Part shown: positions 59,320-64,000 of the stretch, one piece after another
Numbering within the stretch: position 1 is the first letter of the stretch
Layout of the letters: every line of letters begins with the position of its first letter
Assembly (NCBI RefSeq): GCF_002530675.1
Contig: NZ_PCMX01000002.1
Coordinates: 1 to 64,000 of the forward strand
DNA length: 64,000 nucleotides
Direction of reading: 5' to 3'
DNA from: Flavobacterium columnare NBRC 100251 = ATCC 23463
GTDB lineage: Bacteria > Bacteroidota > Bacteroidia > Flavobacteriales > Flavobacteriaceae
The notes under the pieces: generated by a model
What the model saw: the letters and a program-made list of their open reading frames with translations, nothing else
Database searches by the model: none
Told to the model about the DNA's origin: nothing
Program-made: the position numbers and the translations under genes

Positions 59320-59889
59320 ATGCACGACTTTATATACGATCAAAACTTCAATCAAGTTGTTTACAACCAATACGAATTAACTAACAAAGAATTTGAAAAC
59401 TGTACTTTCACGGGTTGTAATTTCACACAAGCCTTTTTTACTGGAACTATGTTTGTTGACTGTACTTTTAAAAACTGTAATTTTAAAGAGGCTAAAATTG
59501 GCCATGTAGGTTTAAGAAATGTATTATTTATAGACAGCGATTTTACAAATGTAAATTTTGCTATGACGGATCAAGTTATTTATGAGTTTCATTTTACCAA
59601 TTGTCTTTTAGATTATGCCCAATTTTATAAACTAAAACTAAAAAAAATTCAATTTACTAATTGCAGTATGGTTTCCGTAGATTTTATGGAAAGTGATTTA
59701 ACAGAAGCTTTGTTTGATAATTGCAACTTACGCTTGGCTGTTTTCTCAGATAGTATTCTTATAAAATCAGATTTTTATTCAAGTTATAATTTCTCCATAA
59801 ACCCTGAGAAAAATAAATTAAAAAAAGCCATTTTCTCTCAAGAAAACATCAAAGGATTATTAGATACTTATGAGATTATAATTAAGTAA
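59320..59889 (+). CDS. Pentapeptide-repeat protein
   Basis: A 189-residue right-handed quadrilateral beta-helix. Pentapeptide units A(D/N)LXX-like are frequent: FENCTFTGCNFTQAFF, DCTFKNCNFKEAKI, DSDFTNVNFAM, ESDLTEALFDNCNL and others, with conserved Cys/Phe positions. Some proteins of this type (Qnr, MfpA) mimic DNA and protect gyrase; that role here is only a possibility. No signal peptide. Monocistronic, convergent with the nitroreductase gene. Confidence 0.85.
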   Translation: MHDFIYDQNFNQVVYNQYELTNKEFENCTFTGCNFTQAFFTGTMFVDCTFKNCNFKEAKIGHVGLRNVLFIDSDFTNVNFAMTDQVIYEFHFTNCLLDYAQFYKLKLKKIQFTNCSMVSVDFMESDLTEALFDNCNLRLAVFSDSILIKSDFYSSYNFSINPEKNKLKKAIFSQENIKGLLDTYEIIIK

Positions 59890-59899
59890 CTTTTTTTTA

Positions 59900-59935
59900 C
59901 CGAACGAGAAATAAAATCCGAACGAGAAATAAAAA
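59900..59935. repeat. Two-copy 18-bp tandem repeat
   Basis: CCGAACGAGAAATAAAA plus one base occurs twice in tandem (59900-59917 and 59918-59935), with 17 of 18 bases identical. It lies just downstream of the pentapeptide gene. Function unknown. Confidence 0.55.
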
Positions 59936-59950
59936 ACACAAATAAAACAA

Positions 59951-60009
59951 TTACCTCCTACTCCAACGGATGTTTGTAGAAAATATAAACTAAAAAGAGT
60001 AAGAGGTAA
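59951..60009. repeat. Inverted repeat between convergent genes
   Basis: TTACCTCCTACTC (59951-59963) and GAGTAAGAGGTAA (59997-60009) match at 12 of 13 positions with a 33-nt loop. It may end transcription from the pentapeptide or nitroreductase side, although no T-run follows. Confidence 0.4.
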
Positions 60010-60042
60010 AATGGAGTTCATCTTGTATCGAATAAATGAAAC

Positions 60043-60657
60043 TTATTTAAACTCGCTTATAATTTCATCTAACTGCAAGCGTGATTTAGATCGTACATGA
60101 GGTTGGTTTCCATCTTTTTGATCTCTTTTTCCTATTGCAACTGCAAATAAAGGCTGATAATCTTTTAATCCTAATACTTTTCTATAAACATCTGTTTCTA
60201 TTCCTTCCATAGGAGTTGAATCAATTCCTAAACTGGCACAAGCTGATAAAAAATACCCTAATGATAGGTATACTTGATTTTTCATCCAAGATTTTATTTC
60301 TTCTTCTGGAAGAGGTTTTAAATATTGTTTGTAGTACCCTGTCGCGCCTTCTGGTAATTTATTTTCTATTTTTTTTTCAAATTTTTCTTCAAATTTTTGA
60401 ATATCATCAATTACGCTAAACACTATTGTATGGCTTGACTCTAAAACTCTTGAGGCATTAAAATAGGATGCTTCTGCTAAAAGTTTTTTTATCTCAGTAT
60501 TGGATACAAAAGTAAAATGCCAAGGTTGACTATTAATAGAAGATGGTGACAAGTTTAATATTGATTTTAATTTTTCAATCATTTCTAATGAAATTTTTTC
60601 ATTAGGATTGTATTTTTTTGTAGTGTAGCGCTCTTTTGCTAATTGTAGAAAACTCAT
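60043..60657 (-). CDS. nfsB: NfsB-like NAD(P)H nitroreductase
   Basis: A 204-residue FMN-dependent nitroreductase. The FMN-binding features are the N-terminal RYTTKKYNP, SPSSINSQPWHFTFV (about residues 37-51) and the late LGIDSTPMEGIE and GKRDQKDGN segments. It would reduce nitroaromatics or quinones with NAD(P)H. It is transcribed divergently from an HxlR-type regulator through an unusually compact promoter region, so it is likely that regulator's target. Confidence 0.9.
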   Translation of the reverse strand: MSFLQLAKERYTTKKYNPNEKISLEMIEKLKSILNLSPSSINSQPWHFTFVSNTEIKKLLAEASYFNASRVLESSHTIVFSVIDDIQKFEEKFEKKIENKLPEGATGYYKQYLKPLPEEEIKSWMKNQVYLSLGYFLSACASLGIDSTPMEGIETDVYRKVLGLKDYQPLFAVAIGKRDQKDGNQPHVRSKSRLQLDEIISEFK

Positions 60658-60693
60658 GTTTGTTTATTTTAAATTAAACTATACTTTTTATAG

Positions 60694-60727
60694 TTGCAAA
60701 CATATTTATAGTTTTTTATATTTGCAA
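60694..60727. promoter_or_regulatory. Face-to-face divergent promoters in one palindrome
   Basis: TTGCAAACATA (60694-60704) and TATATTTGCAA (60717-60727) are inverted repeats with one mismatch. Plus strand: TTG (60694-60696), 20 bp, TATATTTG (60717-60724) for the HxlR gene. Minus strand: TTG (60727-60725), 20 bp, TATGTTTG (60704-60697) for nfsB. Each promoter's -33 box adjoins the other's -7 box, so only one polymerase can bind at a time. The palindrome is also the likely HxlR operator. Confidence 0.75.
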
Positions 60728-60750
60728 TAACGGTCAAAAAGGATAGTGAA

Positions 60751-61119
60751 ATGTATAAAATAGATCATAAAAAATTTCCTTGTAGCACGAGTTTGACTAT
60801 GAAATTCATAGGAGGTAAATGGAAAGCGGTTATCTTAATTCATCTTTTTAATAAAAAAAGGTATAACGAACTAAGAAAACAAATACCTATGGTAACAGAG
60901 AGAACTCTTAGTTTACAACTAAAAGAATTAGAAGAAGATGGTTTGATATCTAGGACTGTTTTTACTAAAAAACCTCCGTTAAAAGTAGAATATGAACTTA
61001 CAGAATTAGGTAAAACCTTAATTCCCTTATTGAATGAAATTTCAAATTGGGGCAAATTTATTGCTGAAGAGCACTTACATGTAAAAATAGAGTCTTGTAT
61101 AACAGATCTTAAATCATAA
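60751..61119 (+). CDS. HxlR-family transcriptional regulator
   Basis: A 122-residue winged-helix regulator. The family signature is clear: a Cys near the N-terminus (FPCSTSL), FIGGKWKAVILIHL, RYNELRKQIP, and TERTLSLQLKELEEDGLI. HxlR proteins often sense electrophiles or redox change through that Cys and control an adjacent oxidoreductase, which fits the divergent nfsB. Its last 11 bp overlap the convergent end of the ABC ATPase gene. Confidence 0.92.
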   Translation: MYKIDHKKFPCSTSLTMKFIGGKWKAVILIHLFNKKRYNELRKQIPMVTERTLSLQLKELEEDGLISRTVFTKKPPLKVEYELTELGKTLIPLLNEISNWGKFIAEEHLHVKIESCITDLKS

Positions 61120-61786
61120 CTCTACCATCCTCCATAGTTATAATACGGTGCGTACGATTAGCAAAATCAGGATCGTGTGTTACTATTAATAAGGTTTGAT
61201 TAAATTCTTTAGCTAATTGATTAAAAATATCAAAAACGATATCGCTATTTTTTTTATCTAGGTTACCAGTTGGTTCATCACCCATGATTATAACAGGTTT
61301 ATTGATAAGTGCTCTAGCAATTGCGACTCGTTGTTTTTGTCCACCACTTAATTGATTGGGCATCTTCAATGCTTGTTCGTGCATTTCTAATGTGCGCAAG
61401 TATTCCATTGCATTATATTCGATTTCCTCTTCTGAGAGTTTAGCTAATTTTAGTCCTGGAAGCATTACATTTCGCAACACACTAAATTCGTTAAGCAGAT
61501 AATGAAACTGAAATACAAATCCTATTTTTTCATTTCTAATTTGCGCTAATTCTTTATCTGTCTTGCCTGTAATTAACTGATTATCCATTAAAATTTGCCC
61601 TTCATATTCAGTATCCATAGTTGATAGTAAATACAATAATGTGGATTTTCCACAACCTGACTTTCCCACAATAGAAACGAATTGACCGTATTCTATTTGT
61701 AAATCAATTTCTTTAAGAACCTGCATACGTACTGGATCATTAAAGTATTTTGTTAGTTTTTTAGTTTCTAAAACAATATTATTCAT
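61109..61786 (-). CDS. MacB/LolD-like ABC transporter ATPase
   Basis: A 225-residue ATPase of the MacB/LolD class. Motifs seen are Walker A VGKSGCGKST, the Q-loop FVFQFHYLLNEF, the signature LSGGQKQRVAIARAL, Walker B VIIMGDEPTGNLD and the switch VTHDPD. Its ATG overlaps the stop of the permease gene (TAATG), so translation is coupled. Together with the permease and the HlyD-type protein upstream it forms an export operon. Confidence 0.92.
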   Translation of the reverse strand: MNNIVLETKKLTKYFNDPVRMQVLKEIDLQIEYGQFVSIVGKSGCGKSTLLYLLSTMDTEYEGQILMDNQLITGKTDKELAQIRNEKIGFVFQFHYLLNEFSVLRNVMLPGLKLAKLSEEEIEYNAMEYLRTLEMHEQALKMPNQLSGGQKQRVAIARALINKPVIIMGDEPTGNLDKKNSDIVFDIFNQLAKEFNQTLLIVTHDPDFANRTHRIITMEDGRVMI

Positions 61787-63042
61787 TATTTTCCTCTAAT
61801 AATTTCTACTGGGTCAATTTTACTGGCTTTCAGTGCTGGAAACAAACCTGCTATACAAGTGGTTAGTAGGGCAAATGTAATTCCTATGACATAAAAAAGG
61901 GGATTGTAATTCATTGGAAACGTTTTAACTGTAGGTAGAGCGGCTGTATTAAATGGAATTAGATCTATAATATTTGAAAAAACAAAACCTAAAAACAACC
62001 CTAAAATACCTCCTGTAATTCCAATAACCATGGACAATAACAGAAAAATCCATTTTACATCATTTCCTGAAAAACCTGTTGCTTTTAGAATTGCAATACT
62101 ATCCATTTTTTCAAAAATCATCATATTTAATATGTTATAGATCCCAAACCCAGCTACAATTAAAAGGACAACACCTACTGCGTAGGATATAATACTCCTA
62201 ATAGTCGTACCTGTTTCAAATTGCGAATTGGCAGTTTGATAATCCATTGCATCTGTTTCATATTTTATTTTATATTCCTTAGCTAAAATGGGGGCTTGTA
62301 AAATGTCATGAATTTTTACTTGAATATCGGTAATATAGTTTTTGGGAACGCCTAAAATTTTTTGAGCCATAGACAAAGAGGTATAACTAGTTATATCATC
62401 TATTTCTGCGATACCTATTTGAATAATTCCTACAATTTTCATAGAGGTTAAATTCCCTTTGGGTGTAGTAATTTTAATCATATCTCCTTTTTTTAACAAC
62501 ATTTTATCAGACAATCCTTTGCCGATCACAATGCTATTGTTTTGTTGCAAATCTTCTATTTTACCTTCTATCATATAATCATTAAGAGCAAATAACTTTT
62601 GTTCTACTAGAACATCAATACCGTTTACAACTCCTGAAATTTCTATTGTTCCAGAATTAAAAAAAACAGGTGTATTGATCTTGGCTGCCACATCATATAC
62701 GCGGGTATCTTGCTTTAAACTCTGAATAATTGATTTAGCATTGTAAATAGATTTCCCTCTATCTTTAGGTTTTATTGAATGAATGAAATTACTATGTTCT
62801 TTATATTCTTGCGAGATAGTCACAGGCTGATTTTGGGAAGGTTTTATTTCGTTATACAAACGAACATGTGGTGTACGATTAATAATTAGACCGTCTAACA
62901 AATCGTTCATACCATACATAAAACTGACCAAAGTAATAAACATGGCTATTCCAAACATGACTCCTGCTCCTGCAATGATGGTTTGCTTGAGTCTAGAACG
63001 CATTAAATGCAGTGCTATAGAAAAAATCAGCTTACAATTCAT
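61786..63042 (-). CDS. FtsX/MacB-type ABC transporter permease
   Basis: A 418-residue permease with the FtsX/MacB layout. One span lies near the N-terminus (about 20-40), a large periplasmic domain follows (about 45-280), and three C-terminal spans (about 285-305, 335-360, 382-402) flank the EKMDSIAILKATGFS coupling helix. The C-terminus KASKIDPVEIIRGK is typical. It probably moves a peptide, lipid or drug out of the inner membrane. Start and stop overlap both neighbours by TAATG. Confidence 0.9.
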   Translation of the reverse strand: MNCKLIFSIALHLMRSRLKQTIIAGAGVMFGIAMFITLVSFMYGMNDLLDGLIINRTPHVRLYNEIKPSQNQPVTISQEYKEHSNFIHSIKPKDRGKSIYNAKSIIQSLKQDTRVYDVAAKINTPVFFNSGTIEISGVVNGIDVLVEQKLFALNDYMIEGKIEDLQQNNSIVIGKGLSDKMLLKKGDMIKITTPKGNLTSMKIVGIIQIGIAEIDDITSYTSLSMAQKILGVPKNYITDIQVKIHDILQAPILAKEYKIKYETDAMDYQTANSQFETGTTIRSIISYAVGVVLLIVAGFGIYNILNMMIFEKMDSIAILKATGFSGNDVKWIFLLLSMVIGITGGILGLFLGFVFSNIIDLIPFNTAALPTVKTFPMNYNPLFYVIGITFALLTTCIAGLFPALKASKIDPVEIIRGK

Positions 63043-64000
63043 TACTTAGGCATATAAATGGTTTCATCTACTTTTAATCCACTAATTACTTCTACTTTTT
63101 GGTAATCTTTTAGCCCTGTTTTTATTTTTCTTTTTTCATTTTCATTTACCAAAACGTATTGTTCTTTTATTAAATAATTCCTTGGTATAGTGAGTATATT
63201 TTTACGGGTTTGAATAATAATATTAGCCTCGGCAGTCAGATTAGGATATAGTTTTTGTGGTGGTTTTACAAAATGGGCTTCTATTTTAAATGTACGTGAA
63301 CGTACATCCATAATAGGATAAATTTTAGCAACGGTAGCTTGAAAAAATTCCCCCTTATAACTATCCATTGTAACGCCTATTTTTTGACCAACTTGCACGC
63401 GTACCATATCATTTTCATCTATATCTAATTCTAATATATAATTATCTTTTTTACCTATGATGGCTAAGGGTGTTTGTTGATTTATAACGGTTCCTTCTTT
63501 TACTAGGATATCATAAAGTTCGCCTGAAAAAGCACTTTTAACAATAAAATCACTTTGTGTTTTTTGGTTTATTCTTAAATTTACATTACTACGATCTTGT
63601 TCATTACGCAACTGAGTTTTTAATTGAGACAATTGTTTTATAGCCATTTCGTGAACTAATTTGGAGTTCTTGTAGGCTAATTCTACTTTTTCGAAATCGA
63701 CTTCAGAAATAGCGTTGTATTCCTTAACATTTTTACTACGTTTATAAAGTGATTCATCCAAAATTAATTTATCTTTAGCACTCTGGATACGTAATTCTGC
63801 TTCTGCTATTTTATCTCGAATATATCTACCGTTTTCTTGTGTGATTTCATACGACAAACGAGCATTTTCAGTAGCCAAATTAGCTTTTTCACTTTCTATT
63901 TGAAACAATGATTGTCCTTTTATTATAGGCTGCCCTGGTTTTACATTAATGTTTTGTAAAACACCTGTTACTGTACTAAAAACTATATATTGTTTGTCTG
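63042..64000 (-). CDS. HlyD/MacA-type periplasmic adaptor, partial at the window edge
   Basis: The open frame continues past 64000, so the N-terminus is missing; the leftmost ATG-like codon at 63908 is internal. Visible parts are a lipoyl-like half (GVLQNINVKPGQPIIKGQSLF), an alpha-helical hairpin (about 63500-63900; many Lys/Glu heptads), the second lipoyl half and a beta-barrel (SAFSGELYDILVKEGTVI). It would link the permease to an outer-membrane channel, as MacA does for MacB. The three-gene order matches MacAB-type efflux operons. Confidence 0.9.
   Translation of the reverse strand, partial: DKQYIVFSTVTGVLQNINVKPGQPIIKGQSLFQIESEKANLATENARLSYEITQENGRYIRDKIAEAELRIQSAKDKLILDESLYKRSKNVKEYNAISEVDFEKVELAYKNSKLVHEMAIKQLSQLKTQLRNEQDRSNVNLRINQKTQSDFIVKSAFSGELYDILVKEGTVINQQTPLAIIGKKDNYILELDIDENDMVRVQVGQKIGVTMDSYKGEFFQATVAKIYPIMDVRSRTFKIEAHFVKPPQKLYPNLTAEANIIIQTRKNILTIPRNYLIKEQYVLVNENEKRKIKTGLKDYQKVEVISGLKVDETIYMPK

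Follow-up and report, generated by a model that had tools for sequence, protein, structure and literature searches.

The question raised by this locus is how a regulator and its divergent neighbour are expressed from promoters that occupy the same DNA. In the window, by which we mean the whole 64,000-nucleotide stretch of Flavobacterium columnare DNA that was analysed, an HxlR-family regulator gene (hxlR, plus strand) and a nitroreductase gene (minus strand) are separated by a spacer of 93 bp. Within this spacer lies a 34-bp unit, TTGCAAACATATTTATAGTTTTTTATATTTGCAA (60694–60727), whose TTGCAAA and TTTGCAA arms are perfect and in which 22 of the 34 positions are self-complementary, as counted by eye. 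The features discussed below are listed in Table 1.

Table 1. Genes, promoter boxes, predicted starts and candidate operators at the hxlR–nitroreductase locus (window coordinates)
Feature	Position	Strand	Basis
Nitroreductase-family oxidoreductase, 204 aa, divergent target gene	60043..60657	-	Pfam PF00881, E 8e-22
HxlR-family regulator, 122 aa, N-terminal Cys11	60751..61119	+	Pfam PF01638, E 1e-28
O1, candidate HxlR operator dyad ACTATA-N5-TATAGT	60678..60694	.	ACTAT/ATAGT half letters in 70-78 of 84 aligned loci
Predicted nitroreductase transcription start, 5' UTR ~35 nt	60692	-	inferred from TAnnTTTG as -12 to -5
-33 box (TTG), hxlR promoter	60694..60696	+	sequence; family sample, 14/25 short-spacer and 0/22 long-spacer loci
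-7 box TATGTTTG, nitroreductase promoter	60697..60704	-	sequence; target promoter and both flanking sites in 47/54 family-sample loci
O2, central TATAGT half-site in the shared spacer	60707..60712	+	ATAGT letters in 67-80 of 84
-7 box TATATTTG, hxlR promoter	60717..60724	+	sequence; family sample, 18/25 short-spacer and 0/22 long-spacer loci
-33 box (TTG), nitroreductase promoter	60725..60727	-	sequence; N20 to its -7 box in all module matches listed
Predicted hxlR transcription start, 5' UTR ~22 nt	60729	+	inferred from TAnnTTTG as -12 to -5
O3, second candidate operator ACGGTCAAAAAGGATAGT	60730..60747	.	alignment of 84 loci

TTG is the -33 box of Bacteroidota promoters. The plus strand of the unit reads TTG, 20 bp and TATATTTG, while the minus strand reads TTG, 20 bp and TATGTTTG. 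Two -33/-7 promoters are superposed here and point apart, the hxlR promoter rightwards and the nitroreductase promoter leftwards. This confirmed the proposal of the first-pass annotation that each strand carries a full Bacteroidota promoter (TTG-N20-TAnnTTTG), the -33 box of one abutting the -7 box of the other. It had called them "face-to-face", a term that denotes convergent promoters and is wrong for a divergent pair. According to the part of the F. psychrophilum study that we drew on (PMC9723704), the primary sigma factor has TAnnTTTG as its -7 box, at positions -12 to -5; the two starts in Table 1 were therefore placed accordingly, and they lie 37 bp apart.

A sigma-70-type promoter scan of 59850–61250 returned 6 matches against 6.8 in shuffles; this comparison says little, as the promoter grammar of the host differs from that of sigma-70. 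No terminator-like sites were found in the same interval, and an Rfam search of 60400–61000 gave no structured RNA above gathering scores.

Two observations concern the surroundings of the gene pair. Converging on hxlR from 61109–63908 are LolD/LolC-E-like ABC transporter genes, whose matches stay under the NCBIfam equivalog cut-offs, and one more ORF on the minus strand; the first of these ORFs overlaps the hxlR end by 11 bp. Additionally, the nitroreductase frame of F. covae AL-02-36 (L002) is broken at a homopolymer run that matches window positions 60365–60380, where the window copy is intact; phase variation, decay or a sequencing error are possible causes.

The regulator is the only HxlR-family match in its genome. 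It is 91% identical to the protein of Flavobacterium covae and 85% identical to that of F. davisii, and its winged-helix domain scored 99.5 bits against a Pfam cut-off of 20.8. Cys11 was found in all 94 distinct HxlR relatives. The best NCBIfam matches of the protein were RrpA and RrpB, both below cut-off (74 vs 185 and 72.2 vs 175 bits). The nearest solved chains were those of YybR (4a5m/4a5n), with HxlR, YodB and QsrR further down. YodB, QsrR and HypR sense electrophiles via an N-terminal Cys, and HypR and B. subtilis HxlR are activators. An excerpt of PMC7835342 gives 4A5N the name HypR. By analogy with these proteins and with RrpA and RrpB of C. jejuni (PMC8765430), the expected signals of the window HxlR are quinones, nitro compounds or disulfide stress.

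The divergent partner varies. Among 89 related loci, blastp clusters of the neighbours (Pfam on representatives; some loci were fetched twice) comprised 53 nitroreductases, 19 zinc-type/quinone dehydrogenases, 7 flavodoxin-fold quinone-reductase-like proteins and 10 other proteins.

Is the unit more than an accident of base composition? Of 199 Flavobacterium genomes, 17 contain the exact 34-bp unit, in a single copy each, while the reversed-pattern control gave 0 of 199; in the window's own genome it is likewise single-copy. The window base frequencies predict 0.0002 exact units per Mb, or about 0.15 in 199 genomes if 3.8 Mb per genome is assumed. When the gap between the arms was left free (N0-30), N11 accounted for 15 and N12 for 17 of 42 Flavobacterium matches (together 32). 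In the family sample (249 genomes, 235 genera) the corresponding numbers were 3 and 14 of 30 (together 17), most of the N12 matches there being relatives of the window locus. An arbitrary or chance palindrome is thus ruled out by the excess over expectation, the empty control and the concentration of gaps at N11 and N12. Because precisely these two gaps give both promoters 19- or 20-bp spacers, the arms act as promoter boxes.

The same spacing emerged de novo. Among 1174 distinct TAnnTTTG contexts in the collected loci, the distance to TTG, counted outside the HxlR module, peaked at 19 (66 cases) and 20 (68 cases), other distances between 10 and 32 giving counts of 11–38; the loci were partly pattern-selected, which inflates the peaks somewhat.

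To follow the unit across relatives, we set an E-value limit of 1e-28 for HxlR matches, which gave 114 loci and, after removal of identical ones, 94, some of them fetched by the 34-bp pattern itself. The family sample contributed 54 loci from 52 of its 249 genomes, the genus set comprised L024–L037 (15 weaker HxlR matches, L038–L052, were omitted) and the genome-contigs set L002–L022 (L023 was omitted). The three samples overlap (L010 = L156 and L020 = L162, at zero branch length), so the pooled counts below contain duplicates.

The target side of the module was well kept. The nitroreductase-side promoter together with O1 and O3 was present in 47 of 54 family-sample loci, and 84 of the 94 distinct loci could be aligned (the search pattern itself dictates the CAAA, TA and CAATA columns). 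Seven family loci (L126, L128, L152, L165, L167, L173, L174) and one of 14 genus loci (L035) were without the full target module. The target promoter spacer was 20 in every module match listed, with 18–21 allowed.

On this alignment we examined the candidate operators. In each of the 47 family-sample modules, no more than one of the 10 half-site letters of O1 differed; this dyad extends over the predicted start of the nitroreductase transcript and borders on the -33 box of hxlR. O3 spans the region where hxlR transcription is predicted to start, which for the nitroreductase promoter is the DNA upstream of its -33 box. The O3 letters at 60731, 60745 and 60746 were found in 84 of 84 loci, those at 60730, 60732–60736, 60743, 60744 and 60747 in 74–83, and those at 60741–60742 in 51 and 61. 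In 71 of the 79 loci measured, the ends of O1 and O3 are separated by 53 bp, approximately five turns of B-DNA. O2 is lost or altered in some superposed loci (L099, L184, L185, L191) and is therefore dispensable for the superposed layout.

In the main group of loci O3 forms a partial dyad only, and a more perfect one, AACTATCC..GGATAGG/T, occurs in several loci with quinone-reductase-like and other partners. The left half (60728–60736) stays AACGGTC-like in most relatives, GG being present in 74–75 of 84, and the asymmetric form persists even at loci that have no overlapping hxlR promoter.

In the window's own genome, the promoter-plus-O3 module (up to 2 mismatches) occurs once. O1-like sites (ACTATAN5TATAGT, up to 1 mismatch) numbered 25 per strand, the same as the reversed control (25). 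We thus discarded the idea of a wider HxlR regulon in this genome, as half-sites no commoner than the control do not by themselves mark targets.

The regulator side of the unit behaved differently from the target side. Its -33 TTG and -7 TAnnTTTG boxes were jointly present in 12 of the 47 family modules and incomplete in 35. Their presence followed the distance to hxlR, measured to the first aligned codon, which is sometimes other than ATG. Of the 25 short loci of the family sample (hxlR within 100 nt), 18 carried the -7 box and 14 the -33 box, and each box was present in 0 of the 22 long loci (hxlR farther away). Genus-sample short loci had each box in 6 of 12 cases and the single long locus had neither (0/1). 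For the genome-contigs sample the counts were 3/5 (-33) and 2/5 (-7) in short and 1/16 and 0/16 in long loci.

Most long loci have a promoter of their own for hxlR. ATAGTTG-N20-TAnnTTTG was found nearer the gene in 37 of 41 pooled long loci, always with N20 although 18–22 was allowed, and 28 of these 37 carry the O2 half-site (up to 1 mismatch) at the same offset.

Among the pooled short loci, 18 of 46 are without an in-register regulator -7 box, and exact superposition is therefore not required for the gene pair. Fifteen of these 18 contain no other full TTG-N17-22-TAnnTTTG within 200 nt; L004, L005 and L028 have a full promoter match 115–121 nt from the aligned hxlR start. A lone TAnnTTTG stands out of register 60–66 nt upstream in L004, L028, L125, L130, L145 and L154. 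At L152, which has no close divergent gene, the hxlR -7 box is kept and the target -7 box is changed by one letter, and at L128 the nitroreductase is kept despite a changed letter in the target -7 box.

On the HxlR tree (87 rows; L165 and L173 were skipped), the short/long state needs 4 changes and the superposed state 12, with 54 of 84 inner branches open, and an independent-pairs test of the short/long contrast had 2 usable pairs. With so few changes and pairs, the Fisher values for this contrast are overstated: the pattern is strong, its statistical support weak.

These counts bear on where HxlR binds. The first-pass annotation had one HxlR dimer sitting on the TTGCAAA..TTTGCAA dyad and blocking both promoters, and the 34-bp palindrome could serve as such an operator, either for one dimer or for two that bridge the arms. 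The arms are indeed perfect in the window and in its nearest relatives, L002 and L003. The promoter boxes, however, fully account for them, 7-bp arms with a 20-bp gap are unlike the compact O1 and O3 dyads, and the same arms stand beside TetR, LuxR and MerR genes and in three regulator-free places. Moreover, the arm halves that belong to the regulator alone are complete in just 12 of the 47 family modules and incomplete in 35, whereas O1 is present in 47 of 47 and O3 persists. We consider this reading very improbable and rejected it on that loss of half-arms with O1 and O3 retained. Aligning the spacer from relatives, as had been proposed, thus gave a divided answer: O1, O2 and O3 proved conserved, but the regulator half of each arm is often lost. 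Because the half-arms vanish while O1 and O3 persist, HxlR most likely uses O1 and O3 as its operator, assisted by O2, and not the long dyad.

The same losses could mean that the nitroreductase promoter alone is used, the plus-strand boxes being a by-product and hxlR starting from another or a very weak start. The minus-strand promoter is the invariant one, and the in-register plus -7 box is absent from 18 of 46 pooled short loci, as such a reading would have it. Yet that box follows the short layout in the family sample (18/25 vs 0/22), a separate hxlR promoter appears in 37 of 41 long loci, and the 23 nt from the unit to the hxlR ATG leave little room for a downstream promoter; we consider a single working promoter very improbable. 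The main rival, which we regard as unlikely, makes HxlR mainly an activator of the nitroreductase gene. Modified HxlR at O3, whose centre is at about -46 from the predicted start, would recruit polymerase leftwards, and this activation would itself shut off hxlR via the shared slot, O1 serving basal repression and autoregulation. O3 adjoins the target -33 box on its upstream side and ranks, letter for letter, with the best-conserved parts of the module, also at loci where no hxlR promoter overlaps it. Passages of PMC8765430 describe C. jejuni RrpA, one of the two best NCBIfam matches (both below cut-off), as a positive regulator of divergent mdaB, and passages of PMC12825309 report that, at bidirectional promoters of E. 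coli, activators repress transcription in the other direction via polymerase competition. Against activation, O1 covers the target start, which is a repressor position, the hxlR promoter of long-spacer loci, which is not known to need activation, has the same operator upstream, and the RrpA paralogue RrpB represses divergent nfrA, as stated in the same part of PMC8765430.

We favour, as the probable reading, a superposed bidirectional promoter that serves an autoregulated redox/electrophile sensor, HxlR, and its nitroreductase, both controlled by predicted HxlR binding at O1 and O3. Reduced HxlR dimers would bind O1 and O3; the distance of about five turns places both on one face of the helix, and O2 lies in the interval. 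A dimer on O1 would mask the start of the nitroreductase transcript together with the margin of the hxlR -33 box; one on O3 would cover the hxlR start region and flank the nitroreductase -33 box, so that both transcripts would be held down. As judged from their positions over the two starts, O1 and O3 fit repression of both genes, autoregulation included. Against this reading stand the partial O3 dyad of the main group, the short loci that lack an in-register regulator -7 box, the nitroreductase kept at L128, and activators among the proven relatives (RrpA, HypR and B. subtilis HxlR).

Modification of Cys11 by quinones, nitro-aromatics or oxidants would then release HxlR. Polymerase would load in one orientation or the other, because each -33 box abuts the opposite -7 box, and strong firing one way should lower the other. 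Newly made HxlR would close the unit again. Judging from this geometry, two opposite polymerases should exclude each other at the shared DNA. According to part of the E. coli work (PMC12825309), bidirectional promoters show little competition at basal activity, and competition appears once one direction is strongly activated.

In place of the "built-in switch" of the first-pass annotation, one regulator acting on both genes would amount to negative autoregulation plus competition for one slot. It is not a toggle switch, because a toggle needs two mutually opposing regulators; here one side is an enzyme (PF00881), and the genome has a single HxlR-family gene.

Does the unit occur beside other genes? 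Three pooled samples yielded 45 gap-12 matches found by the pattern only (17 from the genus, 13 additional ones from the family and 15 additional ones from the phylum), and 42 of them lie beside a regulator gene. Thirty of these regulators are HxlR proteins of the window's clade (confirmed by tblastn, E 1e-36 or better) and 4 belong to another HxlR clade (35–42% identical, E about 1e-18; Pfam), the others being 6 TetR, 1 LuxR and 1 MerR (Pfam). Matches L100, L188 and L193 are without a regulator gene, and at L074 HxlR faces a different sort of partner, a gene of the major royal jelly/NHL type.

With the window's HxlR clade set aside, regulators were found at 12 of 15 gap-12 matches against 3 of 23 matches with gaps other than 11 or 12 (FUR in L111, TetR in L121, ArsR type in L198). 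The Fisher p of 9e-5 for this comparison is too small, as the counts include orthologues and represent fewer independent origins. In the control all 23 flanks were inspected, with Pfam run on the flanking ORFs of 19; L197 (like L194) was judged by eye, and L094, L120 and L199 had no ORF of at least 60 aa.

The TetR copies of the unit are L069, L071, L072, L181, L183 and L190. Five of the six face a short-chain dehydrogenase (assigned by Pfam for L071 and by eye for the others), and these five look like members of one family. A dyad centred in the unit was seen by eye at L069, L071 and L181, where a central repressor blocking both promoters is plausible. The second HxlR clade carries the superposed unit at L070, L186, L187 and L189, its partners being old yellow enzyme, SDR, DoxX and alpha/beta hydrolase proteins; AGTAATG is common to the middle of the unit in L070, L186 and L187.

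The gap-11 unit, with 19-bp promoter spacers, was observed at stable RNA genes. With every orthologue counted, a tRNA gene is found in 8 of 18 loci (L077, L080, L082, L085, L087, L088, L101, L116) and a small SRP RNA gene in 7 of the 10 loci, out of 18, that were searched with Rfam (L076, L081, L083, L084, L086, L089, L090). Inspected by eye, the flanking ORFs gave a YebC-like protein in L078 as the sole recognised regulator; L077, L080, L082, L088, L101 and L116 are without a nearby ORF.

A tentative generalisation, which we hold possible though short of probable, is that Bacteroidota repeatedly build a one-slot unit, TTGCAAAnnTA-N12-TAnnTTTGCAA. Coincident regulator and target promoters would compete in it for one polymerase site and one operator set would govern both, the layout having been adopted independently by HxlR, TetR, LuxR and MerR types, with an N11 version at tRNA and SRP RNA genes.

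The rules of bidirectional promoters are only now emerging, and in E. coli; the 34-bp unit is a searchable example from another phylum with a different primary sigma factor. Its natural variants (superposed, half-lost and separated) make polymerase competition, autoregulation and noise comparable across relatives. Additionally, O1, O2 and O3 are candidate operators for a widespread flavobacterial HxlR family found beside nitroreductase and quinone-reductase genes.

In the open-access literature we found no paper on HxlR divergent from a nitroreductase, nor on divergent HxlR promoters in Bacteroidetes, and none of the matches listed there dealt by title with bidirectional promoters in Bacteroidota. 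The main text of PMC9723704, on F. psychrophilum starts, contains neither "divergent" nor "bidirectional". Bidirectional promoters and divergent pairs of redox regulators and reductases are already known. As far as these searches show, what is new is the complete coincidence of two -33/-7 promoters, with the -33 box of each next to the -7 box of the other, and its recurrence beside Bacteroidota regulators.

The closest precedents for the promoter are those of E. coli and other bacteria (Warman, Grainger et al.; PMC12825309, PMC10268837). In the parts of these papers on which we rely, one DNA stretch likewise accepts polymerase facing either way, the two opposed complexes exclude each other, as predicted for the window, and regulator–target pairs are among the examples (acrR/acrA, soxR/soxS). 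The E. coli type, however, shares a near-symmetric -10 and most often has 18 bp between its starts (distances of 10 and 23 are common too), whereas the -7 boxes of the window are separate, each abutting the opposite -33 box, and the predicted starts are 37 bp apart.

For the gene pair, the nearest systems are RrpA-mdaB and RrpB-nfrA of C. jejuni. As described in sections of PMC8765430, an N-terminal-Cys redox regulator is there, as here, divergent from a quinone/flavin reductase gene; RrpA and RrpB are reported autoregulators and bind inverted repeats between the genes, to which the candidate dyads O1 and O3 of the window compare. Those sections make no mention of superposed promoters. The C. 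jejuni systems differ in phylum and promoter type, and the window protein scores far below the NCBIfam cut-offs. HypR, YodB, QsrR and HxlR of the Firmicutes (MarR/DUF24, which is the HxlR family) share the Pfam family of the window regulator, but the matches span the domain alone (e.g. 7–102 of 122 residues). Unlike theirs, the operators and promoters of the window are those of Bacteroidota.
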